Shown piece after piece: positions 7,715 through 64,000 of a stretch of DNA of 64,000 nt (positions within the stretch are counted from its first letter, which is position 1; each line of letters begins with the position of its first letter). A program made the translations under genes and the position numbers. The stretch comes from Micromonospora wenchangensis (GTDB taxonomy: Bacteria > Actinomycetota > Actinomycetes > Mycobacteriales > Micromonosporaceae), in the NCBI RefSeq assembly GCF_002210435.1, contig NZ_MZMV01000011.1:62001-126000 (forward strand). The letters run 5' to 3'. Below the pieces are notes generated by a model. That model made no database searches and was not told the origin of the DNA. It worked only from the letters and a program-made list of their open reading frames with translations.

Positions 7715-8494
7715 TCACTCCGGTCGGTCGAGGAGCTTACGGATCTGGTTGGTGTACGCGCCGAAGTCCGCCGAGCCGGTGACCTCGAGTTCGCGCGGCC
7801 TGGCCAGGGTGACGTCGACGATCTCGCGGATCGTGCCGGGGCGTCCGGTCATCACGATGATCCGGTCGGAGAGGAACACCGCCTCGGCGATGCTGTGCGT
7901 GACCAGCAGGATGGTCTTGCCGGTCTGCTGCCGGACCCGCTCCACCTCGAGGTTCATCTGGTCGCGGGTCATCGCGTCCAGTGCTCCGAACGGTTCGTCG
8001 AGCAGCAGCAGCCGGGGATCCTGCAACAGCGAGCGGGCCAGTGCGGCACGTTGCTGCATGCCGCCGGAGAGTTCGCCGGGGTACTTCTCGGCGAATCCGT
8101 CCAGCCCGACCATCTCGATCAGGGATCGGGCCCGGGGCCGTACGTCCCGGAACCGGCGTCCGGCCACGATCCCGGGCAGGGCGACGTTCTGTTCGACCGT
8201 CCGCCACGGCAGCAGGACCGCCTGCTGGAACATCAGGCCGACGTCGGTCCCCGGTCCGGCTCCGGCGGCGTTGACGTCCACCGTGCCCTCGGTCTCGCCG
8301 GTCAGGCCGGCGACGATGCGCAGCAGGGTCGACTTGCCGCAGCCGGACGGGCCGAGGATGGAGACGAACTCGCCCTCGGCGACGTCGAACGACACGTCCG
8401 TGAGGGCGACGACAGGGGTGCCGGTCCGGGTGCTGTACACCTTGGACAGGCCCCGGGCCGATACCACCGGTGTCCGGGTCACGAGGTCGGCCAC
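7715..8494 (-). CDS. ABC importer ATPase, SsuB/TauB/NrtD type
   Basis: 259 residues. Walker A is GPSGCGKST, the Q-loop is MFQQAVLLPW, the signature is LSGGMQQR, Walker B is RLLLLDEPFGALD and the switch histidine is in VTHSIAEA. It powers the permease encoded directly downstream. GTG 8494 has AAGG 7 nt upstream and overlaps the binding-protein gene by 16 nt. GTG 8482, forming a GTGA overlap with that gene's stop, is an alternative. Confidence 0.92.
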   Translation of the reverse strand: MADLVTRTPVVSARGLSKVYSTRTGTPVVALTDVSFDVAEGEFVSILGPSGCGKSTLLRIVAGLTGETEGTVDVNAAGAGPGTDVGLMFQQAVLLPWRTVEQNVALPGIVAGRRFRDVRPRARSLIEMVGLDGFAEKYPGELSGGMQQRAALARSLLQDPRLLLLDEPFGALDAMTRDQMNLEVERVRQQTGKTILLVTHSIAEAVFLSDRIIVMTGRPGTIREIVDVTLARPRELEVTGSADFGAYTNQIRKLLDRPE

Positions 8495-47796: not shown

Positions 47797-48807
47797 TCAG
47801 CGGGGCACGATGCGGCGGATCGCTGCGATCTGGTTGGCCCAGCCGTTCAGTGTCACGAGCTTGACGACATCACCGCTACTCGGCGCGTGGATGATGAGTC
47901 CGCTGCCGAGATACATGCCGATGTGGCGGGGTGTGGTTCGGGTGCCCTGGCTGCCGGGGATGAGGATCAGGTCGCCGGGGTGGAGTTGCGTCGGGTCGGT
48001 GACGGGGGTGCCGGCGTGGATCTGATCTTGGGTGGTGCGGGGGATGGTGATGCCGGCCGTCCGGTACGCGGCCTGCATGAGGGATGAGCAGTCGCACTGC
48101 CTGGCAGGGTCGCCGGAGTGCGGGGCGGTACAGGAACCGCCGAAGTGGTATGGGGTGCCGAGTTGGCCGACGGCCCAGGTTATGGCGGTCGCGACGGCCG
48201 GCGGAGTGTCGGCCGGCACCCTGAAGCCGTCCGGTATGGCAGTAGGTGTGGCGGCACAGTCGGTCAGTGTGCCGGTGAGGCGTTGAACCAGGTGGGAGGC
48301 GTCGTCGGCCCACTTGGTGTAGGCGTCAGGGAAGGCGGAGATCTGTACTGCTTGTGCGGCCTGGGTCAGTGGCATCGTTTCCCAGCTGGGAACGGCGAGC
48401 AGTTTGTGGTAGAAGGCGTTGGCCTGGTAGGCGGGGTCGGCCAGTTGGGCTGCGCTGCCCCAGCCCTGGCTGGGGCGTTGCTGGAACACACCGATGGAGT
48501 CGTGGTCGTTGCGGTGGCCGAGGTGGGGCAGGTTCCGTAGTCCGGATTCCTGCAGTGCGGTGGCGACGGCGATGATCCAGCCTCGGCGGGGCACGCCCCT
48601 GGCCCGTCCGACGTCGATGATCGTGGTGGCGATGTCGAGCTGCTCGGTATCCCACGTGCCGGTGTTGGGCGGCTGGTCGGAGGGTGGATGGGGTGCGGAG
48701 GCGGTGTCGCAGGTGCCGGAGCGGGTGGTGGCCGACATGAGGGCCGCGGGGAGGCCGAGGCAGGCTACGACGACCACGGTGACAACTCCGATGATGACTT
48801 TGGTCAT
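47797..48807 (-). CDS. secreted transglycosylase-like + NlpC/P60 peptidoglycan hydrolase
   Basis: 336 residues. N-terminal membrane signal (about 4-25), then a lytic-transglycosylase-like domain (about 55-180; E87 in ATALQESGL, GVFQQRPSQGWG). An NlpC/P60 domain follows (about 200-336) with catalytic C240 in CDCSSLMQAAYR, histidine H295 in PRHIGMYLG and H307. Such two-domain enzymes (VirB1/TcpG-like) open the wall for conjugative transfer channels in Gram-positive bacteria. It fits the relaxase and coupling-protein genes further right. Confidence 0.9.
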   Translation of the reverse strand: MTKVIIGVVTVVVVACLGLPAALMSATTRSGTCDTASAPHPPSDQPPNTGTWDTEQLDIATTIIDVGRARGVPRRGWIIAVATALQESGLRNLPHLGHRNDHDSIGVFQQRPSQGWGSAAQLADPAYQANAFYHKLLAVPSWETMPLTQAAQAVQISAFPDAYTKWADDASHLVQRLTGTLTDCAATPTAIPDGFRVPADTPPAVATAITWAVGQLGTPYHFGGSCTAPHSGDPARQCDCSSLMQAAYRTAGITIPRTTQDQIHAGTPVTDPTQLHPGDLILIPGSQGTRTTPRHIGMYLGSGLIIHAPSSGDVVKLVTLNGWANQIAAIRRIVPR

Positions 48808-49398: not shown

Positions 49399-50388
49399 TC
49401 AGACTGTGAGCAGGTCGAAGGCGGTGATCTTGAGGTCACCGACGTTGCCGGTGACGACCCGATTGGCGCGGGCGGTGTCGTTCTTGGCGGGCTGGTAGTG
49501 GTCGAGGTACTCGGTGATGGCCTGGTATCCGGCCCATCGGCTGCCGGTGATGGCTTTCTGGGTGTCGGCTTCGCGGATCAGGTACTTGAGGGTGCCGAGG
49601 CGCTGCTTGGCGTTTTTGCGGGTCTGCTCGGAGGCGTTGTCCTTGAGGGGCCACACCTGGCCGACGATCTGTTCGAACTCGCGCATGGTCAGCTCGGCTT
49701 GGAGCATCCGCTCGGCGGCCTTCTCGAAGGTGTCCATGTAGGTCCACATCAGGCCGATGGCCTCGCGGGCCTGGCTGATCTGTGAGGTGACGTTCGAGGT
49801 GTGCCGGAAGGTGTAGTGCCCGACGGTGTGTTGGAAGGCGGCGCGTTGGGTGTTGGCGCAGACCACCCGGATGGGGCTGGCGTCGACGCGCAGGGCGGCG
49901 GTGCCGTCGTGGGAGGTGGTGCCGATCAGGTAGAGGTCCAGTCGGTCGACGCCGGCGATGTGCATCGCGTCGGGGAGTTTCATGGTGACGAAGACGCTCT
50001 TGCCGCCGCGGAGGCTGCCGGCGGTTTCGAAGTGGGCGCCGCCGACCTGGTCGACGAGGCGGTCGAGCATCTCGGCGCACTGTTCGTTCTGGACCACGGT
50101 GTAGTCGGTGCCGACGATGCCCAGGTACTCGGTGGCTCCGGTGGCCGGGTTACGGCGGACGGTCATCCGTTTGTCGTCGGCGGGGACCTGCACCTCGACG
50201 CCGTCGATGAGGTCGATGCCGACGGTGCGGATGGTGCGTACGCCCCAGTCACCGAGGCGGGCGGCGGCCATGATCTCTTCGGCTTTCATGGTGTCCTGGG
50301 TGACGGTGCCCAGCTGATGCCAGGCGGATACGCGGGCGGACGCGAAGGCGGTTGTCCCGTCGGCGAACGTTTCCAGTTCGTGTGGCAC
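49399..50388 (-). CDS. DUF932 (phage/plasmid-like) protein
   Basis: 329 residues. ASARVSAWHQLGTVTQDTMKAEEIMAAARLGDW, GTDYTVVQNEQCAEMLDRLVD and PIRVVCANTQRAAFQHTVGHYTFRHT are the DUF932/TIGR03299 signature. Such proteins are common on plasmids, phages and integrative elements; their biochemical role is unsettled, with DNA-related functions proposed. ATG 50388 has AGGAGAACC upstream. Beside it are element-type genes of unknown function. Confidence 0.9.
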   Translation of the reverse strand: MPHELETFADGTTAFASARVSAWHQLGTVTQDTMKAEEIMAAARLGDWGVRTIRTVGIDLIDGVEVQVPADDKRMTVRRNPATGATEYLGIVGTDYTVVQNEQCAEMLDRLVDQVGGAHFETAGSLRGGKSVFVTMKLPDAMHIAGVDRLDLYLIGTTSHDGTAALRVDASPIRVVCANTQRAAFQHTVGHYTFRHTSNVTSQISQAREAIGLMWTYMDTFEKAAERMLQAELTMREFEQIVGQVWPLKDNASEQTRKNAKQRLGTLKYLIREADTQKAITGSRWAGYQAITEYLDHYQPAKNDTARANRVVTGNVGDLKITAFDLLTV

Positions 50389-50458: not shown

Positions 50459-51727
50459 TCAGGACTGGTCGGGGGTGCCCGCGTCGGTGCCGGTCTCGGC
50501 GGGTGCCGGGTGGAGGAAGGTGAGCGGGTTGTCGGCGACCAGGAGGATGCGGCCCGCAGCGGCGGCCTTCGTGAGGTTGTTGCGGACGGCCCCGTTGCTG
50601 ACTGCCCGGTTGAGCTGCGCGGCGAGGGCGGTGGTGATGTCCTGCGGGGTCATCTGGCGGCCGGGGTGGGCGGCGAGGTAGTCGAGGGTCAGGCGTTCCA
50701 GTTCGCCGCGGCCGAACGGCTGGTTGCCGTCGGCGTTGACGGTGGTGTCACCGACCCGGGTCGTGGTGCTCGCCGCGCGGAGGGTGGGGCGGGTGGGTAG
50801 GACGACGATGTGGGTCTCGCCGTCGGGGGCGACGATGTGCAGGGTGCCGTCCGGGTGGATCAGCGGCTGTACTGCCGTCGTGGCGGTCGGTGCGGTGGCC
50901 AGTCCTCGGATGGCCTGGGAGCACAGCGGGCAGCGGGGCGGCTGCGGGTTCGGGTCGACCTCGCTGGCCTTGGTCGGTCCCGGGATCCACCGTGGCGGCA
51001 GGCCGGGTAGGCGTCGGGCGGCGTCGGCCTGCTCCATCGCGGTCAGCAGCCGGGTGGCCGTCGGGTGTCCGATGCCGCTTTCGGCGACGATCACGTCCAG
51101 GGTCGCGCCGATGTCGCCGTGGTCGGCCAGGACTGCCTTGATGGTCATGACCTTGCGGTCACCTGGGCGGGCAGGCGATACGGCGGCTGCCGGCTGTGCC
51201 GTGGCCTGCACGTCGGAGTTCGGCTCGGTGTCGTCGCCGCTGATGTGGGCCCCCTCCTCGTCGGGGACGGCCGGCCCGTTCGCGTCAGTGTCGTCGTCTC
51301 GGTCGGGCGGAGTGGTCCCTACCTCGGTGCCGTCGCGGTCGCTGCTGCCGTCGTCGGGGTTGCTCGCGATGTGGTCGGTCGACTCGCCGGTGTCCTCAGC
51401 CGGCTGGTCGGTCCGTTCCCCGGTTTCGGTGTCTGCGTTCTGGTTGACGGTGGTGTCGGCCCCGGTGGTGTGCGCGTCGGCGGGTTCGGTGTCCGGCGGC
51501 GCGGTGTCACCGGCGGCGGTGGGGAGGGTCCACCGGGTGGGGATGCCGTCGGTGTCGGTGTCCACCGCGATGATCAGGCCGGCGTCGGTCAGGGTCTTGA
51601 TTGCCTTGTCGGTGGTCGATCGGGCCTTGCCGGCCTTCTCGGCCAATTCGTGGATGTCGCCCTGGCCGAGTTCGGTCAGGGCGTCGAGGACGGCCTGCGT
51701 GGCAGGTGTCAGGGACAGGTCGTTCAT
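50459..51727 (-). CDS. two-headed winged-helix DNA-binding protein with acidic linker
   Basis: 422 residues. The N-terminal wHTH (about 5-65) reads ATQAVLDALTELGQGDIHELAEKAGKARSTTDKAIKTLTDAGLI. A long Asp/Thr-rich linker spans about 75-185, a second wHTH-like part lies at about 195-250 (TLDVIVAESGIGHPTATRLLTAMEQAD), then a Cys pair (RCPLCSQAI) and a third wHTH-like end (RLTLDYLAAHPGRQMTPQDITTALA). ATG 51727 has AGGAGGG 8 nt upstream. Possibly the partition or regulatory protein of the element; unproven. Confidence 0.75.
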   Translation of the reverse strand: MNDLSLTPATQAVLDALTELGQGDIHELAEKAGKARSTTDKAIKTLTDAGLIIAVDTDTDGIPTRWTLPTAAGDTAPPDTEPADAHTTGADTTVNQNADTETGERTDQPAEDTGESTDHIASNPDDGSSDRDGTEVGTTPPDRDDDTDANGPAVPDEEGAHISGDDTEPNSDVQATAQPAAAVSPARPGDRKVMTIKAVLADHGDIGATLDVIVAESGIGHPTATRLLTAMEQADAARRLPGLPPRWIPGPTKASEVDPNPQPPRCPLCSQAIRGLATAPTATTAVQPLIHPDGTLHIVAPDGETHIVVLPTRPTLRAASTTTRVGDTTVNADGNQPFGRGELERLTLDYLAAHPGRQMTPQDITTALAAQLNRAVSNGAVRNNLTKAAAAGRILLVADNPLTFLHPAPAETGTDAGTPDQS

Positions 51728-51869: not shown

Positions 51870-52445
51870 TCAGTGGCCGGTGCTGGTGCGCAGGATGTAG
51901 AGGCGTCCGTTGGTCGGGTCGCGGTAGATACCGGCGTCGGGGTGGGCGAGTCGCAGCGGCTCGACGCTGCCGGACGGTCGCAGCCGGGCGTCGCAGCTAC
52001 CGACGGTGATGTGGGTGGCGTGGCCGGCGAGGTGCAGCCGGCGGCAGGAGTCGGTATGGGGCAGGACGACCAGGACGGTGTCGCCGGGGTTGACGTAGCG
52101 CCGCTGCACCACCCTGCCCTCGTGGGTCTGCGCGTGGACGGTCCGTGTGGTGTCGGCGATGAGGGTGTCGACGCGGTCGCGGGCCTGCCGGTACTCGCGG
52201 CCCAGGTCGGTGATGGTCTGCACGACGCCGGTGACCGTGGCGGTGAGATCGGTCAGGTCGTCGGTGTTGATGAGCCGGGTGCGGAGCTGGTCGGCGGCGA
52301 GGAGCAGTTCGGTGCGTAGGTGCCGCAGGGTGGCGGCGGCGTCGGGGAGGTGCGCGGCGGCGGGGATCGGGTCGGTGGCGTGCTGGTCGAGGGTGCGGCC
52401 GGTCGTGAGGGTGATCCACCGGTTGACCGGGTCGAGGTGCGGCAT
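51870..52445 (-). CDS. hypothetical element protein
   Basis: 191 residues starting MPHLDPVNRWITLTTGRTLDQ. A helical coiled-coil-like part (LRHLRTELLLAADQLRTRLINTDDLTDLTATVTGVVQTITDLGREYRQARDRVDTLI, about 40-105) is followed by a beta-rich part (YVNPGDTVLVVLPH, LYILRTSTGH). No family recognised. It lies 14 nt after the next upstream gene on the minus strand and likely belongs to the same unit. Confidence 0.6.
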   Translation of the reverse strand: MPHLDPVNRWITLTTGRTLDQHATDPIPAAAHLPDAAATLRHLRTELLLAADQLRTRLINTDDLTDLTATVTGVVQTITDLGREYRQARDRVDTLIADTTRTVHAQTHEGRVVQRRYVNPGDTVLVVLPHTDSCRRLHLAGHATHITVGSCDARLRPSGSVEPLRLAHPDAGIYRDPTNGRLYILRTSTGH

Positions 52446-52459
52446 CAGGTGTCCCGGGG

Positions 52460-53200
52460 TCAGCTGGTGAGGTGGGCGAGTTCGGTGGGGGTGAGCTGTG
52501 CGGGGGTGCGGTTGCGCCACGCGTCGGAGTGGCGCAGCTGCCACCAGCGCAGCAGCGCCCGGCAGGCGGTGGGGAGGTCGTCGCAGTCGGGCAGCGGGTA
52601 CGCCATCGGGCCGTGGCGGTGGCGGGGGTCGGTGTATGCGGTCGGTGTCCACCCCTGGTCGGTGTCGGTGACCTCCCCGACGATGCGGTTGGCGTACGGG
52701 ATGTCGAAGGCGGTGGCGGCTTCGGCGTCGGGCATCACCAGCCAGGTGCGGTCGGGGTGGCGGCGCAGCGTGGCGACACCCTGCGCGGGGTCGCCGGGGT
52801 GCAGCAGCAGGTGCCGTTCGTTGGTGCCGCTGATCGGCCGGTGGCTGCGCCAGGCGCGGTAGCAGGCGGTGAGCAGGGTGCCGAGGAGGCGGTGGCGTTC
52901 ACGGGCGGTGAGGACGTCGGTGAGGGTGTGCGGGTAGCCGGTCAGGGGTCCGTCGGCGTGGGAGGTGAGCCGGTGTCGGGTGGTGTCGGCGAGCGCACCG
53001 AGCCGGGTGAGGGTCTGGTCGAGGGTGGTGGTGCTGTCGGTGAAGTCGCGGGCGGTGCGGTGTAGGAGGCGGGCGAGGTCGCCGAGTGGGTCGAGGGTGG
53101 CGGTGTCGTGTCGCCACAGGTGTTCGGGTAGGACGTCGTTGGTGTCGGCGGCGATACGTCGCAGCGCGGGATCGGTCAGGAACACCGGGGTCTCCTTCAC
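52460..53200 (-). CDS. hypothetical element protein
   Basis: 246 residues, mostly helical, starting MKETPVFLTDPALRRIAADTND. The middle (TARERHRLLGTLLTACYRAWRSHR) is basic, and the end contains ALLRWWQLRHSDAWRNRTPAQLTP. No family recognised. The ATG has AAGGAGAC directly upstream (on the minus strand). Tandem position with the genes at 51870 and 53267 suggests a conserved module of actinobacterial integrative elements. Confidence 0.6.
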   Translation of the reverse strand: MKETPVFLTDPALRRIAADTNDVLPEHLWRHDTATLDPLGDLARLLHRTARDFTDSTTTLDQTLTRLGALADTTRHRLTSHADGPLTGYPHTLTDVLTARERHRLLGTLLTACYRAWRSHRPISGTNERHLLLHPGDPAQGVATLRRHPDRTWLVMPDAEAATAFDIPYANRIVGEVTDTDQGWTPTAYTDPRHRHGPMAYPLPDCDDLPTACRALLRWWQLRHSDAWRNRTPAQLTPTELAHLTS

Positions 53201-53266: not shown

Positions 53267-53956
53267 TCAGGCGGTGGCGATGGCGCACAGCCGGGCGTCG
53301 GGGCGTAGGGCGCGCAGGTAGGCGCAGGCTTCGTTGAGGAAGCGGAACCGGTCGGCGACGGAGTCGGTGGCGGGGGTGAGGAGGCGGCCGTCGGTGGTGA
53401 TCAGGGCGTCGCCGATGAGTGCGATGCGCCAGTGCAGGCCGGCGTAGGTCGCTTCCCCTGCCTGGTAGAGGGACAGCTCGTAGGGGTCGAAGGTGTGGGC
53501 GAGCATCGCCAGGACGCGGGGTTGCAGCTCGAAGCGGCGGCGGGCCTCGTAGAGGGTGACGGTGCTCGGAGCGATGTGGTGTTGGGCGAGGAAGTCCTCG
53601 AAGGGACGGGCCGGTTTGGTGGTGGCGCCGATGTGGGTGTTCCAGGCCCGCCAGCGCAGCGCGGCGTCGTGGGCGGCGCGGGCGGCGGTGCCGGTCAGGT
53701 CCAGGCGGCTCTTGCGGCCTCCGGCGGCGAGGGTGACCGCGCCGCACCGTCGGGCGGCGTCGAGCAGCCAGTAGCCGAAGAACCGGGTCAGCCAACCGAT
53801 CAGCGGGCGGTGGCGGACCCGGTAGCGGCGGATGGGGGTGCCGTTGATGTGGAGCAGGTCGTGGACCTTCTCCGAGGCGGCGAACCAGTCGGCGTTCACG
53901 CCGGGGGTGAAGCAGACGGTGATCACGTGGCCGGTGGGGGGAGTGGGGGTGGGCAT
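53267..53956 (-). CDS. hypothetical element protein
   Basis: 229 residues from ATG 53956 (GAAGGGAG upstream). VITVCFTPGVNADWFAASEKVHDLLHINGTPIRRYRVRHRPLIGWLTRFFGYWLLDAARRCGAV forms one domain. The rest is helical, with a stretch of RALRPDARLCAIATA at the end. No catalytic motif is evident and no family is recognised. First gene of the 54.0-51.9 kb minus-strand run. Confidence 0.6.
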   Translation of the reverse strand: MPTPTPPTGHVITVCFTPGVNADWFAASEKVHDLLHINGTPIRRYRVRHRPLIGWLTRFFGYWLLDAARRCGAVTLAAGGRKSRLDLTGTAARAAHDAALRWRAWNTHIGATTKPARPFEDFLAQHHIAPSTVTLYEARRRFELQPRVLAMLAHTFDPYELSLYQAGEATYAGLHWRIALIGDALITTDGRLLTPATDSVADRFRFLNEACAYLRALRPDARLCAIATA

Positions 53957-54324: not shown

Positions 54325-54660
54325 ATGCGCCTGGGTCGGGCCTCTGTGGCGTTCTTCGTGGCCGGTGCGGCATCTGCGCTCTGGGCCGTGTTCCTGATCA
54401 GCGAGGGCTTGGACAAGGCCGACAAGTGGTCCAGTGTCGCGGCCTTCATCGGGACTGTCGTACTCGGCGTTCTCGGCTTGGTGACGGCACGACGATCAGC
54501 GAATCCGACGCCGAGCCCGACGTCGTCGCCGGCAGGCGACGGCGGACCATCGCCGTCCAGCGGCGTCCAGACCATCAATGTCCACGGCGGCATCGCACCG
54601 ATCGTGGGTCCTGGTGGGACTCAGACCAACACGTTCAACACCCCACCGCCGGGCACGTGA
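54325..54660 (+). CDS. small membrane protein sharing a motif with the adjacent NACHT ATPase
   Basis: 111 residues. Two membrane segments (about 6-26 and 38-56) are joined by SEGLDKADKW. A Ser/Pro-rich linker follows (60-80), and a C-terminal motif at 82-105 reads TINVHGGIAPIVGPG then GTQTNTFN. The next protein has nearly the same motif at its N-terminus. ATG 54325 is used; longer frames lack coding character. Its stop overlaps the GTG of the next gene (GTGA), so they are coupled. The small size and two membrane helices would fit a pore-type effector or a membrane anchor. No known family. Confidence 0.7.
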   Translation: MRLGRASVAFFVAGAASALWAVFLISEGLDKADKWSSVAAFIGTVVLGVLGLVTARRSANPTPSPTSSPAGDGGPSPSSGVQTINVHGGIAPIVGPGGTQTNTFNTPPPGT

Positions 54661-56915
54661 CCACGCAGTCCCGCCCGCCGCCGGAGACGCACCACCAGAC
54701 CATCAACGTCTATGGCGGCATCGCACCGATCGCCGCTCCCGGCGCCAAGCAGATCAACATCTTCCGCCACTACAGTCAGGTGGGCGCCTGGGGGCTCGGC
54801 GTGCTGTGCCTCGCCGGGTTCCTGACCGCCCCGCTCTATGCGCGGTCGACCCTGCTGTACAGCATCATGGTGGTCAGCGGAGGCATGGCTGCTCTCTTCC
54901 TGGTGACCGGGTTCCGCTCGGGACCATCGAAGGCGGCGTACATGGATGAGAGGTCAGGTGCCGCTGATCCCGCCCGACTGCGCGAGTGTGCACGGCAGTT
55001 GGCGCTGGTCGTGCGTACCAAGGAACTCGATGGTCGTTCGGTGCTGCTGCACAAGGGGCCTTCCGAACTCCCGGCGGACCTGACCTTCACCCCGATCGAG
55101 GCCGACAACGTACTGACTGGTCGACCCGCCCGTAGTGATCTTCCGTCCGGGTCGCTGCGTGAGGTGGCGAACTACTATCGGGCGCTCTCGGCGAAGCGTC
55201 TGGTCATTCTCGGTGAGCCGGGCGCGGGCAAGACGGTGCTGGCGACGGAGCTGATTATCCAGCTCCTCGATGCTGGGCTGTCCAACGAGGAGTGGCCAGC
55301 CGAACCCAACTCAGTCCCTATCCGGTTCAATCTGGCGAACTGGTCGGATGGTGACCTCTCCGGGTTTCTCGCCCATCAACTCCAGGCGCAGTACCAGGTT
55401 CCCCGCGAGGACGCCGAGGAACTTGCTCTCTCCGGTCTGATCCTGCCGGTGCTGGACGGTCTCGACGAGATGGAGCCCGCGCCGGACAGCCCACGGGACC
55501 CGCAGTGGGCTGTCGACCGCATCAACGATTTCCGCAGATCGCATCAGGACACCGCCGGGGTGGTGCTGACGTGCCGGGACGCGGTCTACGAGTCCCTCGA
55601 CCCTCCGGTCATGGAGGCCGTTGTCGTGCGGGTCGGTGCGTTGAGCGTTGATCAGATCACCGAGTTCGTCAGTGAGCGTCTCGACGGCGACCGCGTGGAG
55701 CAGCAGCGGTGGCTTCCGGTACTCACGTCGCTGAGGACCGGAGCAGACGGGGCGGCGTACCATCTGCTGCGCACGCCGTGGCGGCTCACCCTCGCGCTGA
55801 CGGCCGCGGCAGACGCCGACGTGCTGGATCCCACCACGCTTCTCGGTGAGACGGCGGGACGGTTCGAGGCGATGCTGCTGGATGCCTTCCCGTCGGCGAT
55901 GCTGAACCGCCGTCGGAAAGAGCAGAGGATCATCCGGCCGGGACAGCGCGGCGGCTCCGGATCGAGTTTCACGGTGCCGAACGAGCAGGTACTGCGGCGC
56001 TGGTTGCGGGTACTGGCCCGCTACTCGAACTCCACACTGGCCCTACACACGATGTGGGCCATCGCCGGACAGCACCTGGTGCGTCTCGTTCACCTGGTCA
56101 TCCACCTGGCGTGCGCGCTGGGGTTCCTTATCCCGTGCCTGCTCGCGATCGTCGGCGGTGCAGGGCACGGCGGGTCGGCACTGCGTGCTCTCTGGAGCGG
56201 CTCGGTGCGGCTCTCCGAGCAGCAGACGGTCGCCCTGGTCTGGCTGGCTGGCGCCGGCATCGTGCTGATCGTCTGGGCCGGGTGGCTCGCCATCACCCCC
56301 ACGCCCCGACGGTCGAAAACGAAAACTGCGCAGTACCGCAGCCGCGCGATGCGGCAGATGACCGTCCCCCAGCGCGTCGCCGCAGCCGCGGAGATCAGCC
56401 TGGCGATCGGCGCGGCGCTGGGCCTTCTGGCCTGGCTGGTCGGCGGCTGGATCGTCGGTGCCGTCGTGGGGGTCGTGGTTGCGATCCTCTTCGGCCTGGT
56501 CATGGACAAGGTCCGGCTGGACCGAGGGCTCTCCGGCGGCAGCGACCTGCGAACCGCCTGGCAGAACGACCTCATCCTCGCGCTGCTCTGCGCCGTGCTC
56601 TGCGGCACGGTCTTCCCGATCTTCCTCAGCTATCCGCTGTGGGCCGGTGCTGCCATCGGAGCGATCCTGGGCTTCGCCGGCGCCTTCGTCCTCAGCCTGC
56701 AGGCGTGGCTGCGCTACGTCATCGCCATGACGATCATGAAGCTTCGCGGTGACCTGCCGTGGCGGCTCGGCGCATTCCTCGACTGGGCATACCTGGCAGG
56801 GCTGATGCGGATCTCCGGGATCGGCTATCAGTTCCGCCACCGCCAGTTGCGTGAGTGGTTCGCCCACGACAGCCTCGACCAGGACGGGCAGGCGCACATC
56901 ACCGCCGCCCGCTGA
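54657..56915 (+). CDS. membrane NACHT-type NTPase with N-terminal shared motif
   Basis: 752 residues. Motif at 14-37 (TINVYGGIAPIAAPG then AKQINIF), then two membrane helices (42-62, 66-86) and a soluble NACHT/STAND ATPase with Walker A GEPGAGKT (186-193), Walker B LPVLDGLDE (263-271) and sensor-like TCRD. The C-terminal half has about eight membrane segments (from about 465), ending GYQFRHRQLREWFAHDSL, as in other actinobacterial NACHT membrane proteins. GTG 54657 follows the GTGA overlap. NACHT proteins in bacteria often act in phage defence; here this is inference from architecture and location in a mobile element. Confidence 0.85.
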   Translation: MTTQSRPPPETHHQTINVYGGIAPIAAPGAKQINIFRHYSQVGAWGLGVLCLAGFLTAPLYARSTLLYSIMVVSGGMAALFLVTGFRSGPSKAAYMDERSGAADPARLRECARQLALVVRTKELDGRSVLLHKGPSELPADLTFTPIEADNVLTGRPARSDLPSGSLREVANYYRALSAKRLVILGEPGAGKTVLATELIIQLLDAGLSNEEWPAEPNSVPIRFNLANWSDGDLSGFLAHQLQAQYQVPREDAEELALSGLILPVLDGLDEMEPAPDSPRDPQWAVDRINDFRRSHQDTAGVVLTCRDAVYESLDPPVMEAVVVRVGALSVDQITEFVSERLDGDRVEQQRWLPVLTSLRTGADGAAYHLLRTPWRLTLALTAAADADVLDPTTLLGETAGRFEAMLLDAFPSAMLNRRRKEQRIIRPGQRGGSGSSFTVPNEQVLRRWLRVLARYSNSTLALHTMWAIAGQHLVRLVHLVIHLACALGFLIPCLLAIVGGAGHGGSALRALWSGSVRLSEQQTVALVWLAGAGIVLIVWAGWLAITPTPRRSKTKTAQYRSRAMRQMTVPQRVAAAAEISLAIGAALGLLAWLVGGWIVGAVVGVVVAILFGLVMDKVRLDRGLSGGSDLRTAWQNDLILALLCAVLCGTVFPIFLSYPLWAGAAIGAILGFAGAFVLSLQAWLRYVIAMTIMKLRGDLPWRLGAFLDWAYLAGLMRISGIGYQFRHRQLREWFAHDSLDQDGQAHITAAR

Positions 56916-57006
56916 GCATGCGCCACGCTCTCGGCGCGTGGTACGGCACCAGCGGCACTGTCGAGAGCGGCGGATCCAGACCGACGGCACCGAAGTGAGG
57001 TGCCCG

Positions 57007-58380
57007 TCACTGGCGGCAGCCCAGGGGAGTGACGGTTGCCAAGAGGTAGCCGTCGGCCCTGTAGGTGGCGGGGTATTCCTGCCGTGCCCACTCGGCGATG
57101 GCGGGATCAACGAACTTGGCCCGGTCCGACGGGGCGAACAGGACACCCACGGCACCCTGCGCCCCCGTGATGATGTCGCTGGTGGTGAGGTAGCCACTGC
57201 TGATCCGTACCCGTGAGGTGTCGGCCAGCCACGGCGGTGTACGCAGGCCGGCACGGGCGGCGATCTCCTGATCGTCAGTGACCAGGACTGACCCGACGGG
57301 CAGGGTGCGCAGGCAGCGCAGCATGGCGCTGGCTTCCAGGCGCGGACTGACCGGCATCGTCAGCACCTGCACGACACAGGTCAGCACGAGTGCCGCTGTC
57401 GTCACCAGGTGCATCCTTGGGCGTAGCAGCGTGAAGAAGCCGGCGGCGATGATCGCCGCTCCCGGAGCGACGAACAGCAACAGATGGTGCTCGAAGATCG
57501 GCCGGTGCAGACCCGCGAAGACCACTCCGCTGACACCCCACACCAGCAGCGCGAGCACCAGGGGACGCTGCGCCCTGGACAGGCGACGCAGGCAGAGGAA
57601 CGCCCCGGCTGCGGACAGCAGACCGAACGGCACGATCCATACGGCGAGCATGGTGGTCGCCCCAGCGGGGACCGGCTGTCCTGGAGCATCAGCCGCGCTG
57701 AGGTGCAGGGCGACAACCTGGTCCCACACCACCGCTGGCGGCCTGGTCACGATCAGCGTCAGCACGCACACCGCCACCGCCGCGACTGACATCGATGCGA
57801 GGGCGGCCAGCCGTCGTCGGCTCATCAGCGTCACGACCAGTAGGGCAGGCAGCACGACCACCGCGATGAGCTTCATGGCCAGGGCCACACCCAGCAGCGT
57901 CCCCGAGGCAAGCCACCAGCGCAGCCGTCCCCGGCCTGCGCACACCACCGACCAGGTGACCAGGGCAGCGGTGGGCAGATCAGCACCGAACTGGAAGCAG
58001 TATCGCTGCACCGGCGGCAGCAATGCCACCAGAAGCGCCGCAGCCATCCCGGCGTACCGGCCGGCGAGCCCACGGCCCAGGATGCCGGCTCCGGCGGCGA
58101 GTAGTACCGCCCAGCCGATCGTGAGGATCCGTGCCGCCAGTTCCCCGCCGTTGAGCGCGAACGGTAGGGCGGACAGCCACGCGTAGAGCGGTGGCTGTGC
58201 GAAGAACACCTCCGCGTAGGGCTGGTGTCCGTCGGCCACCGCCAGCGCCGTCTGCCAGTACACCCCGTCGTCGTAGTCGAGTTGCACCATCCGCAGGTGG
58301 CTTGCCCGCACCAAGAAGTTCGCCACGACAGCGACACCGGTGGCGGCCAGCGAGCTACGCGCCGCAGCGGAGACATTCAC
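57007..58380 (-). CDS. multi-pass glycosyltransferase-like membrane protein (GT-C/PMT-2 type)
   Basis: 457 residues with about 11 membrane segments. The N-terminal loop after segment 1 has the acidic DYDDGVYWQTALAVADGHQPY, which is the GT-C catalytic DD-type site. FFAQPPLYAWLSALPF is the second diagnostic loop. A soluble C-terminal part follows (TDDQEIAARAGLRTPPWLADTS). It would transfer a sugar from polyprenyl-phosphate to an outside acceptor. ATG 58380. It is probably cargo, as it has no evident link to transfer genes. Confidence 0.82.
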   Translation of the reverse strand: MNVSAAARSSLAATGVAVVANFLVRASHLRMVQLDYDDGVYWQTALAVADGHQPYAEVFFAQPPLYAWLSALPFALNGGELAARILTIGWAVLLAAGAGILGRGLAGRYAGMAAALLVALLPPVQRYCFQFGADLPTAALVTWSVVCAGRGRLRWWLASGTLLGVALAMKLIAVVVLPALLVVTLMSRRRLAALASMSVAAVAVCVLTLIVTRPPAVVWDQVVALHLSAADAPGQPVPAGATTMLAVWIVPFGLLSAAGAFLCLRRLSRAQRPLVLALLVWGVSGVVFAGLHRPIFEHHLLLFVAPGAAIIAAGFFTLLRPRMHLVTTAALVLTCVVQVLTMPVSPRLEASAMLRCLRTLPVGSVLVTDDQEIAARAGLRTPPWLADTSRVRISSGYLTTSDIITGAQGAVGVLFAPSDRAKFVDPAIAEWARQEYPATYRADGYLLATVTPLGCRQ

Positions 58381-58500: not shown

Positions 58501-59355
58501 TCAACAGACGAAGGTTCCGTCGTCGTCGAAGTTCGGGTTGTCCGCCACGGGCTGGCCGTGGCTGCTGGGTAGCCCGGCGAGGGGGACCCGGACGGTGGTG
58601 CCGGCGGTCAGCCACACCGCTTCGGCGGGGTCGCCGGGATGGGTGGCGGTGGCGACCGGAACGTCGTCGTGCCGGTCGCGCAGAGCCCGGTGCAGATGCT
58701 CCTCGCGGCGTTGGCTGCCGAGCCAGAACAGCACCGGGTAGCGGGGGCCGCCGCGGCGGGTCAGCTGCGCGTACCGGTCGAGTTTGGCGATGACCCGGGT
58801 GAGGGGTTCGGTGCCGGTGTCGGCTTCCAGGAAGAACCCGACGGTGGTGTCGCCGACGCGCCACAGGCCGTGCCCGTCGGCGGTGATGGTGCGGAACTGG
58901 CGGGTGGTCAGTGCCTCGGACCACCACCGGTCCAGGTGGGTCCCCGGATGGTGGTGGGTGTGGGTGGTGAGTCGGACGAAGAACTCGTTGACGGTGAGCA
59001 GGTGGGTCAGGTGCGGATTCGCCGACAGCCGGTGCACGGCCTGGCGGGTTGCCCGCAGGGTGGGCTCCGGGCGTCGGTGGGCGGCGGCCTGGAAGCGGTA
59101 TCCCTGGTGGCCGAGGGTCCAGTGCCAGGGTTGGCTGCCGCCGCCGGCGCGGGCGAACCGGAACCGGTCCAGCAGGCCGAGGTCGGCGAGTTCACCGAGG
59201 CGGATCTGGCAGGTGCGGCGGGCTCGGAAGAACAGGCGGTGGATCTGGTCGGTGGTGAGGACCTGGTGGTCGTCGAGGAGGTGCAGCAGGGCCCGGTCGC
59301 GGGCGGTGATGTGCGGGTAGAGGGACAGCAGGTTGGGAGAACGTGGTGTGGGCAT
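58501..59355 (-). CDS. replication-relaxation family protein
   Basis: 284 residues. N-terminal wHTH (ITARDRALLHLLDDHQVLTTDQIHRLFFRARRTCQIRLGELADLGLLDRF, about 15-65), then the alpha/beta relaxase-like part with HLLTVNEFFVRLTTHTHHHPGTHLDRWWSE and GFFLEADTGTEPLTRVIAKLDRYAQL. These are the family's replication-relaxation signatures from Streptomyces and Micromonospora elements, where it acts at the origin of transfer or replication. The ATG start lies upstream of a 212-nt region with a strong hairpin, followed by the coupling-protein gene. Confidence 0.88.
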   Translation of the reverse strand: MPTPRSPNLLSLYPHITARDRALLHLLDDHQVLTTDQIHRLFFRARRTCQIRLGELADLGLLDRFRFARAGGGSQPWHWTLGHQGYRFQAAAHRRPEPTLRATRQAVHRLSANPHLTHLLTVNEFFVRLTTHTHHHPGTHLDRWWSEALTTRQFRTITADGHGLWRVGDTTVGFFLEADTGTEPLTRVIAKLDRYAQLTRRGGPRYPVLFWLGSQRREEHLHRALRDRHDDVPVATATHPGDPAEAVWLTAGTTVRVPLAGLPSSHGQPVADNPNFDDDGTFVC

Positions 59356-59470
59356 GAAGGGTCACCCCGTGGAGAGAGAATCCCGTAGGGAGTCTGGATG
59401 AGTTGATCGTCCTGTCGTGGGGGCTGATGCCACGGTGTGCGCAGGTCGGGCACCTGACAGGTCCGGTGGT

Positions 59471-59519
59471 GGGGGCTCGGTTGGGGGCTCGTGTCGTGGA
59501 CACCCCCAAACGAGCCCCC
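59471..59519. other. large hairpin between relaxase-type and coupling-protein genes, candidate oriT
   Basis: Arms at 59471-59487 and 59503-59519 are 17 bp with one mismatch, and the loop is 15 nt. It lies in the 212-nt gap between the coupling-protein stop (59568) and the replication-relaxation start (59355), both on the minus strand. It could be a terminator of the first or an origin-of-transfer hairpin. The G-rich arm GGGGGCTCG and its size are unusual for a simple terminator. Confidence 0.5.
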
Positions 59520-59567
59520 GATGCCGTACCCGGTCGAGGCCCCGAACGCGCCGGGCCCTCAGACGAG

Positions 59568-62021
59568 TCAGCGGTCGCGGGAGGTCATCCGTCGCTTCAT
59601 CGCGGTGCGGGCGAGCTGCTGCATCGGCGGCTCGCCGTCGGTGCGGGTGTGGGCGGTGGCGCAGGCGTGCCGGATCGCGGTCGCCGCACCGACAACCGGC
59701 GTCGGCGGGTGGGTGGTGAAGGTGAACGCGGGTAGCTCCCGGTTGCCGACGAGCAGCCGGGCGGCGGCGGTGTAGACGTCGAGGTGGGCGAGGTCGTGCT
59801 CGTCGAGTTCGGGTTTCGTGTGGCGGGACAACTCCCGGGCGTCGGCCGGGTCGACGGTGAAGAACAGCTTCGACCGGGCGTTGGCCGACACCGCCGCCGC
59901 CACATCCCGGGGTAGCTGGGCGAGATCCTGGTGTGCCAGCACCAGGCCGAGGCGGAAGCCACGTGCTTCGGCGAGCATGTCGCCGATGCTGCCGGGCAAC
60001 GTCAGGAAGTTCTGGCATTCGTCGATGTAGAGGACGGCGTCGCGGCGGCGGTCCTCGGCGATGCTGGCGCGGGCGATGGCGGCCTGCCACACCCGGGCCA
60101 CGATCAGCGATCCGAGGATGCGGCTGGTTTCCTCACCGAGAACACCCTTGGGTAGGCGGCACAGCAGCACACCGCCGTTGAGGACCCGACCCATGTCGAA
60201 CGAGGAGTGGGCGTTGCCGATGACGCTCTTGACGAAGTCCCGCAGCAGGAACGCCCGGAGTCGGGCGAGGACGGGGGCGATGACCTGACCGCGGAACTGG
60301 TCGTTGATGCCGTCGTACCAGAGCCAGAACCCGCCGAGGCCGTCCGGGTCGTCCAGGCCGTGGGTGAACCGGCCCCGGAACTGGCGGTCCTGCAACAGCG
60401 ACGGCACGAGACTCAGCGTGGGTTTCGCATGCCGCATCAGCGTCAGGCACGCCACCCGCATCGTGTCGTCCATGCGTGGCCCCCACTGCCCGGCGAAGAT
60501 CTTCGCGAAGATCCCGACCAGGTTGTCCACCGCCAGGTGCGGATCACCCTGGTCGTCGAGGGGGTTGAAGCAGCCCGGATTCTCCTGGTCCGGGTCGATG
60601 ATGACGATCCGGTCGGCGTGGGAGGCGGGTAGCCGGTCGAGGACGTCGGTGACCAGGTCCCCACGCGGGTCGACCACGACCGTTCCCCGGCCGGCCCTGA
60701 TGTCGGCGAGGATCATGTTCAGCAGCAGCGTGGACTTACCGACGCCGGTCTTGCCGACCACGTGCACATGCTGCCGGGCGTCGGCCACCGCCAACCCGAC
60801 GCTGTGACCGCCGAGCTGGGAGCGGCCCAGCACCTTCACCCCCCGTCCACCGGAGGGCACCTGCACCGGCGCCGGCACCGCTCTGGCGCGTGCCCGGTCC
60901 AGGCCCGGCACCGCGAGGTCCTGCGGCAGCGCGGCGAGGACCGCGAGTTCCGGGACGGTCGCCAGGAACCCGCGGCGTAACCGGCGGCCGGCGAGCGTCG
61001 CGACCGGCTGCGGCATCCTCATCCGCCGTAGCCGGTTCGGGCCGGTGTACGCGGCGGCGGCCGTAGCGATCGTGTGCCCGAGGCCGATCAGACGCGCCCG
61101 CAGCTGCGCCACGCGGTCGGTGTCGGTGGGGCTGTCGTCGGCGGCGACGGCGAACCGTACGGCGATCTCGACGTGCGGCACCCGCACCGCCTTCTCCACG
61201 ACCGTCCGGGCGTCGGCCGTGGCCACCGGGTCCCGCTCCGCCACCCGCACCCCCGACGCCGGGTTGCCCGGTCGAGGCGACCCGGGAGTGAACACGTCGA
61301 GGAACCACAGCAGCGGGGCGACAGCCATCCCGGCCACCTGCGACACCGCCCGGGCGGCCGGGTCCGGTCGACCGTGGGGGTGGGTGGCGGCGGTCGCCGC
61401 CGCGCGGCGGGCGGCGCGGACCCGGCGCGTCGACGCCGGGCGGGCGAGGATCTGCACGCAGGCGTGTTCCCGGTAGCGGACCTCGGCACCGGCGGCGAAC
61501 AGCGCCCGCAGCGGATCCGTGTCGTGCACGGTCCGCAGCGGCACCCCGTCGCCACGCTGCGGCCAGTACGCCCCACCCACCTCCACGCCGACGTCGGTGG
61601 GAATCGGCGCGGCAGTGTCGCTGACGGTCAGGGTGGCGGCGGGCCACGCGGCGCGGACGGCGGCCTCGACCGCCCCCAGCGGCACCGTTGCCGGCACCCA
61701 CACCCGGATGGTCAGAGACCGGCCGGTCCAGGTGTACTCCCAGCCGACGTGCGGGTAGCCGAACACCCGTCGCCGCCACGCCGGTGGGGTCAGCGCACCG
61801 ACCATCAGGGTCCAGAACACGGCAGCGGCCTGCGCGGTGACCTCCGGGGGTACGGCGATGGTCAACCAGCGTGCCCCGGCGGTCAACCGGCGATGCCGCC
61901 AGGCGAGCACCTGGTCATAGCTGATCACCGCAACGACGATTGCGGTGGCGGCGACGACACCGAGCCACGGCCGGGCAAGGACCCACTGTGCAAGGTCCGC
62001 CGGCCACGATGTGGTCGTCAT
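59568..62021 (-). CDS. type IV secretion coupling ATPase (VirD4/TraG/TraM-like)
   Basis: 817 residues. Membrane segments lie near 15-35 and 60-80. The P-loop VVGKTGVGKSTLLLNM lies near 421-436 and VVVDPRGDLVTDVLDRLP follows. Walker B is AVLYIDECQNFLTLPGSIGDMLAEARGFRLGLVLAHQDLAQLP near 690-730. It pumps DNA to the recipient. ATG 62021 is preferred over the frame start at 62198 because the membrane anchor begins just after it. Followed by the relaxase-type gene in the same orientation. Confidence 0.9.
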   Translation of the reverse strand: MTTTSWPADLAQWVLARPWLGVVAATAIVVAVISYDQVLAWRHRRLTAGARWLTIAVPPEVTAQAAAVFWTLMVGALTPPAWRRRVFGYPHVGWEYTWTGRSLTIRVWVPATVPLGAVEAAVRAAWPAATLTVSDTAAPIPTDVGVEVGGAYWPQRGDGVPLRTVHDTDPLRALFAAGAEVRYREHACVQILARPASTRRVRAARRAAATAATHPHGRPDPAARAVSQVAGMAVAPLLWFLDVFTPGSPRPGNPASGVRVAERDPVATADARTVVEKAVRVPHVEIAVRFAVAADDSPTDTDRVAQLRARLIGLGHTIATAAAAYTGPNRLRRMRMPQPVATLAGRRLRRGFLATVPELAVLAALPQDLAVPGLDRARARAVPAPVQVPSGGRGVKVLGRSQLGGHSVGLAVADARQHVHVVGKTGVGKSTLLLNMILADIRAGRGTVVVDPRGDLVTDVLDRLPASHADRIVIIDPDQENPGCFNPLDDQGDPHLAVDNLVGIFAKIFAGQWGPRMDDTMRVACLTLMRHAKPTLSLVPSLLQDRQFRGRFTHGLDDPDGLGGFWLWYDGINDQFRGQVIAPVLARLRAFLLRDFVKSVIGNAHSSFDMGRVLNGGVLLCRLPKGVLGEETSRILGSLIVARVWQAAIARASIAEDRRRDAVLYIDECQNFLTLPGSIGDMLAEARGFRLGLVLAHQDLAQLPRDVAAAVSANARSKLFFTVDPADARELSRHTKPELDEHDLAHLDVYTAAARLLVGNRELPAFTFTTHPPTPVVGAATAIRHACATAHTRTDGEPPMQQLARTAMKRRMTSRDR

Positions 62022-63133: not shown

Positions 63134-63463
63134 GTGGAGACCGTAACCCCCGGCCAAGCCCTTGCACGCTTCGGCCACGCGTTGTCGGACGCGACCCGGG
63201 CCCGACTGCTACTCGCCCTGCGCGACGCGCCTGGCTACCCGGCTGACCTGGCCGATCTGCTTGGGGTGACCCGGCAGAACCTGTCCAACCATCTGGCCTG
63301 CCTGCGCGGCTGCGGCCTGGTCGTTGCCGTCCCCGAAGGTCGCCGCTCCCGCTACGAACTCGCCGATACCCGCATCCGCCACGCCCTCGACGACCTACTC
63401 GGCCTCGTCCTCGCCGTCGACCCCGCAGTCTGCCCCGATGCCGCTGACAAGGGCTGCTGCTGA
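63134..63463 (+). CDS. ArsR/SmtB-family metal sensor, CmtR-like
   Basis: 109 residues. wHTH with ATRARLLLALRDAPGYPADLADLLGVTRQNLSNHLACLRGCGLVVAVPEGRRSRYELA. C55 (NHLACLRGC) and C59 lie in the recognition helix as in CmtR (C57, C61). C-terminal cysteines in PAVCPDAADKGCC resemble the third CmtR ligand. CmtR senses Cd(II)/Pb(II). GTG 63134 is the start; its stop overlaps the next ATG by one base. It likely represses the efflux gene downstream. Confidence 0.85.
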   Translation: METVTPGQALARFGHALSDATRARLLLALRDAPGYPADLADLLGVTRQNLSNHLACLRGCGLVVAVPEGRRSRYELADTRIRHALDDLLGLVLAVDPAVCPDAADKGCC

Positions 63464-64000
63464 TGAGCCTTCCGCTGCTGCCCGTCACGCCCGCAAGGCC
63501 AAACCCGGCGCGTCGCACCGTCCTGGCCCGCCGAATTCGGCTGTTGGTCGCCGCCACCATCGGCTACAACCTGATCGAGGCCGTCGTCGCCATCAGCGCC
63601 GGTGCCGCCGCGGACTCCACCGCACTGATCGGCTTCGGCCTGGACTCGATCATCGAGGTCTCCTCCGCTGCGGCGGTCGCCTGGCAGTTCGCCGGCCACG
63701 ACCCCGAAGCCCGGGAGAAAACCGCCCTGCGGATCATCGCGATCTCCTTCTTCGCGCTCGCCGCCTACATCTCCGTCGAATCCGCCCGCGCGCTACTCGG
63801 CGGCAGCGAGGCAGCGCACTCCACCATCGGCCTCATGCTCGCCGCACTCTCCCTCGCGTTCATGCCCGGCCTGTCCTACGCACAAAGACGGGCCGGCCGC
63901 GAGCTCGGCTCCCGCACCGCCGTCGCCGACTCCAAACAGACACTGCTGTGCACCTACCTATCCGCCGTCCTACTCGTCGGCCTCGGACTCAACAGCGTCC
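63463..64000 (+). CDS. cation diffusion-type transporter, partial (runs off right edge)
   Basis: 179 codons are visible. Membrane segments start at IRLLVAATIGYNLIEAVVAISAG, then STALIGFGLDSIIEVSSAAAVAWQF with the D-S-I-E pattern of CDF/cation transporters, ALRIIAISFFALAAYISVESARALL, TIGLMLAALSLAFMPGL and TLLCTYLSAVLLVGLGL. The second-segment acidic residues match metal binding. It pairs with a CmtR-like repressor, so it most likely exports a heavy metal cation. Confidence 0.85.
   Translation, partial: MSLPLLPVTPARPNPARRTVLARRIRLLVAATIGYNLIEAVVAISAGAAADSTALIGFGLDSIIEVSSAAAVAWQFAGHDPEAREKTALRIIAISFFALAAYISVESARALLGGSEAAHSTIGLMLAALSLAFMPGLSYAQRRAGRELGSRTAVADSKQTLLCTYLSAVLLVGLGLNSV

Follow-up and report, generated by a model that had tools for sequence, protein, structure and literature searches.

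The window analyzed here, a 64-kb stretch of Micromonospora DNA (64,000 nucleotides), carries a coupling protein gene and a relaxase gene, both on the minus strand, with a 212-bp gap between them. The genes and the gap that are relevant to this study are given below.

59568-62021, minus strand: gene for a VirD4/TrwB-type coupling protein (T4CP), 817 aa, with a TrwB_AAD_bind match at 1.3e-9
59356-59567, minus strand: the gap, proposed oriT region, separating the coupling gene from the relaxase gene
58501-59355, minus strand: Replic_Relax (PF13814) gene for a MOBC-type relaxase, 284 aa, by profile match
53267-53956, 52460-53200 and 51870-52445, minus strand: three ORFs, order kept in relatives
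50459-51727, minus strand: gene for an HTH protein, order kept in relatives
49399-50388, minus strand: DUF932 gene, order kept in relatives
47797-48807, minus strand: NlpC/P60 gene, order kept in relatives

The original prediction had named the flanking genes as a coupling gene and a "relaxase-type" gene, and both assignments were confirmed by profile searches, the latter through a PF13814 match of 9.2e-52 (176.4 bits, compared with a curated cut-off of 25.3); no NCBIfam match was found for the relaxase. PF13814 is the profile that CONJscan names MobC (PMC5357655). Downstream, the order ORF229, ORF243, ORF191, HTH, DUF932 and NlpC/P60 is conserved in relatives (e.g., L008 and L012), with not every gene found in every relative. 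Immediately beyond the right edge of the window, the contig continues with genes for a pilin, a VirB6-like protein, PrgI and VirB4, which share 95.8-97.4% identity with their counterparts in Micromonospora antibiotica (L010); the families of these genes were named via homologues in L008, the VirB6/TrbL match being weak (E 0.0057). A conjugative T4SS gene set, consisting of T4CP, VirB4, membrane T4SS genes and a relaxase, is therefore present. Searching 72,556 plasmid records at the DNA level gave no match to the element, and only distant matches (35.2-38.6%) in three records were obtained at the protein level.

Two intervals of the element hold additional genes. Between the relaxase gene and ORF229, window positions 54657-58326 encode a NACHT NTPase (PF05729) and a PMT_2 membrane glycosyltransferase, both possible cargo; amongst the 25 elements compared, this interval is enlarged only in the window element (4,544 bp) and in L012 (2,551 bp). 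An ArsR-type regulator and a cation-efflux gene are found between the T4CP and VirB4 genes (63134-64000 and beyond), and about 9 kb separates the same two genes in genome G157, suggesting that this interval is a cargo spot.

The AlphaFold model of the relaxase (mean pLDDT 88.7) contains an N-terminal winged helix of the MarR/MepR type, with Z up to 10.0 over 83 residues in comparisons with the PDB. Because the PDB search with the whole model returned mostly winged helices, residues 97-284 were modeled separately (pLDDT 88.4). Of the solved folds listed, the nearest to this C-terminal model was PaqCI (Z 8.2, rmsd 4.0, 134 residues), followed by the BspD6I small subunit (Z 7.5), the nickase N.BspD6I (7.2) and FokI (6.7), all of which we take to be nucleases of the PD-(D/E)XK kind; EndoMS, Can2 and BstEII were also amongst the neighbors (Z range 6.7-7.5). 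The top neighbors are mostly restriction and repair nucleases; the structural matches are weak (Foldseek E 1.3e-2), with some non-nucleases at Z 5-6. Residues D160, E177, D179 and K191, invariant in 23/23 aligned relaxases, would fit a PD-(D/E)XK site. A winged helix followed by a PD-(D/E)XK-like domain, as predicted here, would match the published account of MOBC relaxases, in which a winged HTH accompanies a PD-(D/E)XK-related fold (PMC12857230).

The inverted repeat previously claimed for the gap was re-measured, and its 17-bp arms, single mismatch and 15-nt loop, as well as the 212-bp gap length, were all reproduced. The arms, 59471-59487 (GGGGGCTCGGTTGGGGG) and 59503-59519 (CCCCCAAACGAGCCCCC), are complementary at 16/17 positions and enclose a loop at 59488-59502. 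The hairpin is assembled from copies of a motif of approximately GGGGnCTCGT, which occurs four times (twice direct and twice inverted), and two further blocks follow toward the relaxase gene.

59534-59543, minus strand: motif copy 1, direct; at least 7/9 fixed letters in 39/43 aligned copies
59471-59519, minus strand: hairpin, 17-bp arms and 15-nt loop
59510-59519, minus strand: motif copy 2, direct, outer part of one arm; at least 7/9 in 43/43
59483-59492, plus strand: motif copy 3, inverted, loop and inner arm; at least 7/9 in 43/43
59471-59480, plus strand: motif copy 4, inverted, outer part of the other arm; at least 7/9 in 34/43
59440-59462, minus strand: CCTGTCAGG...ACCTGC block, core column identity 0.84
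59365-59408, minus strand: distal block ATCAACTCATCCAGACTCCCTACGGGATTCTCTC, a putative nic region on grounds of conservation
59388-59397, minus strand: CCAGACTCCC, column identity 0.98 in 25 elements

Read on the native strand, the order is motif copies, CCTGTCAGG..ACCTGC, a variable stretch, the distal block ATCAACTCATCCAGACTCCCTACGGGA and the relaxase start. Copies 2 and 4 make up the outer stem of the hairpin, the four copies sit 116-188 bp upstream of the relaxase start, and CCAGACTCCC lies 74-122 bp from the hairpin on the relaxase-gene side. The conserved site runs beyond the hairpin, to about 59365, and totals roughly 190 bases.

Inverted repeats with 17-bp arms, at most one mismatch and loops of 3-30 were found twice in the 64-kb window, as the hairpin and at 951-993, and one was present in 3/60 dinucleotide shuffles of the whole window. 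The repeat at 951-993 borders minus-strand genes and is a possible terminator. Folded as RNA, a 71-nt segment gave z = -5.05 on the minus strand and -4.57 on the plus strand, and folded as DNA it gave -5.40 and -5.16; none of the 200 shuffles in any of these tests was equally stable. Conservation in relatives is stronger evidence than these fold and chance statistics that the hairpin is real.

The fold energy as RNA of -43.8 kcal/mol (z -5.05), together with the co-directional flanking genes, could also point to a hairpin that acts in a transcript running from the coupling gene into the relaxase gene, whether as leader, attenuator or terminator. This explanation appears improbable, as a run of at least 5 T within the 8 nt after the stem was found on neither strand in any aligned copy (0/43), terminator prediction called nothing at the hairpin, conserved unpaired blocks lie outside the stem, and copies of the site are found inverted (one) and away from the transfer genes (17). 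An intrinsic terminator in particular was rejected on the first two of these observations.

Additional information about what is maintained in the gap was provided by an alignment of 25 elements, in which the gap measured 199-218 bp in 25/25. In ten-base steps, mean column identity was 0.79-0.85 in the first arm and loop, 0.64-0.71 in the second arm, 0.84 at TCAGGTGCCC and 0.98 at CCAGACTCCC, with 0.44-0.75 in the steps between and 0.06 at the first ten bases; fourfold sites of the T4CP gene, used for comparison, gave 0.615. The CCAGACTCCC block is better conserved than the hairpin. Averaged over its length, the gap (0.657, 25 elements) is not above the DNA downstream of the relaxase gene (0.677, 23 elements). 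That second gap, between the relaxase gene and ORF229 (e.g., L010 10847-11151), comprises about 300 bases, and its mean identity matches that of the oriT-candidate gap.

Within the hairpin, 86.2% of cells were paired in the named stem, on par with the 89.3% for pairing between motif copies 2 and 3. Two-sided changes occurred in 5/17 stem pairs, a level also reached by 162/500 shuffles, stem covariation amounted to 16 cells compared with a shuffled mean of 7.3, and the RNAalifold covariation term was -0.4. Covariation in the stem is modest, exceeding shuffles on some measures only, and conservation of an RNA structure was rejected as the main driver. Because the pairing of copies 2 and 3 is kept about equally, we read the motif copies as putative protein-binding motifs that additionally form a hairpin, rather than as a single fold.

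The distribution of the site was examined across the Micromonosporaceae. With 126 bp of the gap as query, matches were obtained in 51/160 Micromonospora genomes (E <= 0.01), the weakest of which are probably due to chance. A covariance model of the core of the gap, built from 43 copies and applied at E <= 0.001 with strict filters, gave 72 matches in 57/354 Micromonosporaceae genomes and 11/44 genera; PF13814 matches were found in 253/354 genomes of the family. In a census by hand, in which 3-kb loci show only the T4CP end, 52 of the 72 core copies were located in a T4CP-relaxase gap, 51 in the window's orientation and one inverted, three adjoined decayed genes (L021, L023 and L078), and 17 were located elsewhere, with neither a T4CP gene nor an intact relaxase gene in the stretch examined. 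Conservation of the hairpin in related elements had been proposed as a check in the original prediction, and the presence of the core at the same place in 11 genera provides it. In the inverted copy (L037/L091), about 190 bp of the gap are flipped, with the distal block included. In L091 (G095:C1:160001-176103) this inverted block was recorded at 8001-8110, and an insertion of about 2.2 kb interrupts the T4CP gene of the locus.

Amongst the relaxase matches listed, an adjacent core was found for 52/58 of those at least 57% identical, and none of the full-length matches at 41-55% identity had one; two fragment rows (G134:C95 and G357:C7) were excluded from this count, and both of their loci have the core. 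The six at or above 57% without a core were G035 (gene start missing), G258:C3, G347, G341, G342 and G289, the last of which (L204) has a diverged version of the core as judged by eye. The core thus follows the relaxase. The BLAST end of the core lies 77-119 bp from the relaxase start in the 22 loci measured.

These data bear on whether the motifs are a DNA operator on which the winged-helix relaxase, or another regulator, controls relaxase expression without any nick site. Such a role would suit short motifs that include inverted pairs and sit 116-188 bp ahead of the relaxase start, as well as the MarR-like winged helix of the relaxase; the 17/72 copies whose examined surroundings contain no T4CP gene and no intact relaxase gene, and the copy inverted between the same two genes, argue against it, and we regard an operator of this kind as unlikely. 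Autoregulation and oriT function are not exclusive of one another.

The 17 copies away from the transfer genes (L079-L086, L088 and L090; L034/L089, L148, L150, L151, L154, L163 and L169) include a weak match (L169), one that retains a relaxase start fragment (L034/L089), and three pairs that look orthologous (L148/L150, L084/L085 and L088/L163). The sequence GACTCCC downstream of the core is kept in 13/17; L080 has TACTCCC instead, L084 stops at a contig end, and L088 and L163 are without it. A DUF2637 gene, or its 3' part, was found upstream of the core in L080, L081, L084, L085, L090 and L151, and a DUF2637 gene or part of one downstream in L088 and L163, with the Pfam run covering the L080 protein only. 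DUF2637 genes belong to actinomycete elements. The upstream DNA of several of these DUF2637-side, relaxase-less copies is rich in CCTGACA/TGTCAGG repeats.

The proximity of some copies to DUF2637 genes, the iteron-like repeats and the fact that some relaxases initiate replication as well would suit an origin of replication of the element, for example a rolling-circle nick site, instead of an origin of transfer. With 52/72 copies beside T4CP and relaxase genes and a parallel in the plasmid pAM373, described below, we consider this very improbable. A dispersed small repeat of the MITE or REP type, placed between the two genes by chance, is harder still to credit: up to five matches occur in a single genome (G145), and six away copies (L080, L081, L083, L084, L085 and L090) have DNA pieces of 0.4-1.1 kb in common, but most other pairs of away copies have about 0.2 kb or less in common with no common ends seen, and the distance to the relaxase start is near-constant (77-119 bp, 22 loci) across several genera.

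No tRNA gene was found within up to 4 kb on each side of the 17 away copies, and one tRNA-Ser was present in ten wider stretches around them; no integrase was identified near away copies amongst the matches listed for 10 genomes other than the window's own. An empty-site comparison for L081 showed that the DNA downstream of the neighboring gene is variable, and a single weak relaxase trace (E 0.004) was detected 5' of its core. Away copies and intact elements co-occurred above expectation in the 160 Micromonospora genomes (7/12 compared with 23/148, Fisher p = 0.0017), as counted by hand with relatedness ignored and with G134, which has a T4CP gene fragment, taken as lacking an element. The away copies may be hitch-hikers carrying an oriT mimic, or relics. 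Recombinase activity of the kind reported for TraX (PMC5714925) is another possible explanation. Of the loose ends of this work, the relaxase-less copies, several of which neighbor a DUF2637 gene, are the most interesting.

Parts of the site recur in other PF13814 clades. Of 30 loci, 27 were tested, with L058 (contig edge) and L075 and L076 (the window's clade) left out. CTGTCAG/CTGACAG, which in the window belongs to the CCTGTCAGG block, reappeared upstream of PF13814 genes of the family in 21/27 loci (shuffles averaged 1.6 with a maximum of 5; 12/332 other gene-upstream regions had it), and CAGAC[AT]?CC, a pattern chosen post hoc from the same sequences, was likewise found in 21/27 (shuffles averaged 2.2 with a maximum of 7; 6/332 other upstream regions had it). 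Both motifs together were present in 17/27 loci, many of the 27 being related, compared with 0/332 other upstream regions. The patterns were then left unchanged and applied to 25 of 30 further loci, after removal of three already used and two belonging to the window's clade: CTGTCAG/CTGACAG was present in 7, CAGAC[AT]?CC in 5 and both in 4 of the 10 new family loci, compared with 0, 2 and 0 of the 15 loci from other families. Another 18 loci have relaxases 43-65% identical but lack a core match; CAGAC[AT]?CC lies ahead of the relaxase gene in 9 of them (13/18 when one A/G and one C/G change were allowed), and CTGTCAG/CTGACAG is present in 6. CCAGACTCCC recurs, partly varied, upstream of other PF13814 clades, and the two-motif signature is therefore a feature of many, not all, PF13814 loci of the family and not general beyond it. 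A long inverted repeat scoring above all of its own shuffles was found in 13/26 and 6/18 loci of two sets, so the long repeat is not universal. In two loci (L060 and L073), about 440 bp carrying CTGTCAG-like repeats separate a DUF2637-like gene from a PF13814 gene, with no T4CP seen between; a mobilisable-element layout is possible.

Altogether, the gap is a non-coding site beside a relaxase gene with both inverted and direct repeats. It is read as a candidate oriT because the core is conserved in 11 genera and is found away from the genes and once inverted, and because a MOBC plasmid has the same layout of genes and gap. The original prediction had offered the hairpin as a candidate oriT; the repeat-bearing, conserved non-coding site next to the relaxase gene, with the pAM373 layout, supports this for the region, whereas the oriT probably comprises more than the hairpin. 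We think it probable that the region is a MOBC oriT in two parts, one of them the hairpin, to which the relaxase would bind and which has the look of a module specific to the clade; the block at 59388-59397 (CCAGACTCCC) would be the best candidate for the nic region as judged by conservation.

Computation shows which genes are present, how the site is conserved, how its motifs are arranged and that it is retained away from the transfer genes; from this we infer protein binding, nicking and the transferred strand in the following scheme. The winged helix of the relaxase, or an accessory protein, would bind the GGGGnCTCGT motifs of the hairpin; the PD-(D/E)XK-like domain would nick about 75-120 bp off, in the CCAGACTCCC/small-stem block beside the relaxase gene; and the coupling protein would pass the strand on to the T4SS. 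More tentatively, and with the odds against it, the Micromonosporaceae might have a modular MOBC oriT, combining a binding hairpin that changes between clades with a family-wide nic block (CTGTCAG and CAGAC(T/A)CCC, small stem), and the relaxase-less copies would be oriT mimics; if so, stretches of chromosome would be carried along by MOBC elements resident in the same cell. Little is understood about MOBC relaxases, and a compact, conserved candidate site opens nicking, binding specificity and hitch-hiking to direct test and could yield a mobilisation tool for actinomycetes.

The site is ordinary in kind and well supported as a candidate oriT, and the oriT of an actinobacterial MOBC system had apparently not been mapped in the literature searched. 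The CloDF13 record, also consulted, has no annotated MobC. The closest parallel was found in the Enterococcus plasmid pAM373, typed MOBC by PLSDB, in which a T4CP gene, a gap and a PF13814 gene (27.1 bits) lie on one strand. Its gap, which we take to be its mapped oriT, contains two perfect inverted repeats, one of 25 bp (27-nt loop) and one of 18 bp, along with five direct repeats of 12 bp each. Gene order, strand and the presence of long inverted and short direct repeats in the gap are alike, this likeness being one of layout; single-sequence hhalign between the two relaxases was not significant (probability 0.6%). The two sites differ in that the direct repeats of pAM373 stand beside its inverted repeats, whereas in Micromonospora four motifs of about 10 bp, two of them inverted, form the hairpin itself. 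The plasmid has been cited amongst oriTs with inverted repeats or AT-rich regions (PMC6414798).

TraX, the relaxase of the MOBC prototype pAD1, carries a winged HTH at its N-terminus and recognises direct repeats situated 70-120 bp from nic, and for MOBC relaxases no covalent DNA intermediate has been seen and the binding site is described as far from nic (PMC12857230). The predicted winged HTH and putative restriction-endonuclease-like domain of the relaxase in the window, and the proposed binding site far from the candidate nic region, would correspond to the features described there (PMC12857230), and the 70-120 bp of pAD1 can be set beside the 74-122 bp between hairpin and CCAGACTCCC in Micromonospora, the comparison being one of descriptions. 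The away copies would resemble the oriT mimics known on non-conjugative staphylococcal plasmids (PMC8136818), in being relaxase-less site copies movable by the machinery of another element; those mimics are on plasmids, whereas the Micromonosporaceae copies are on genome contigs with no integrase or plasmid recognised beside them and may be relics. Finally, the element shares a coupling protein and a VirB4-type T4SS with the T4SS-based ICEs of actinobacteria, whose relaxases were limited to MOBF in the survey concerned (PMC3218068), whereas the system in the window is of the MOBC type.
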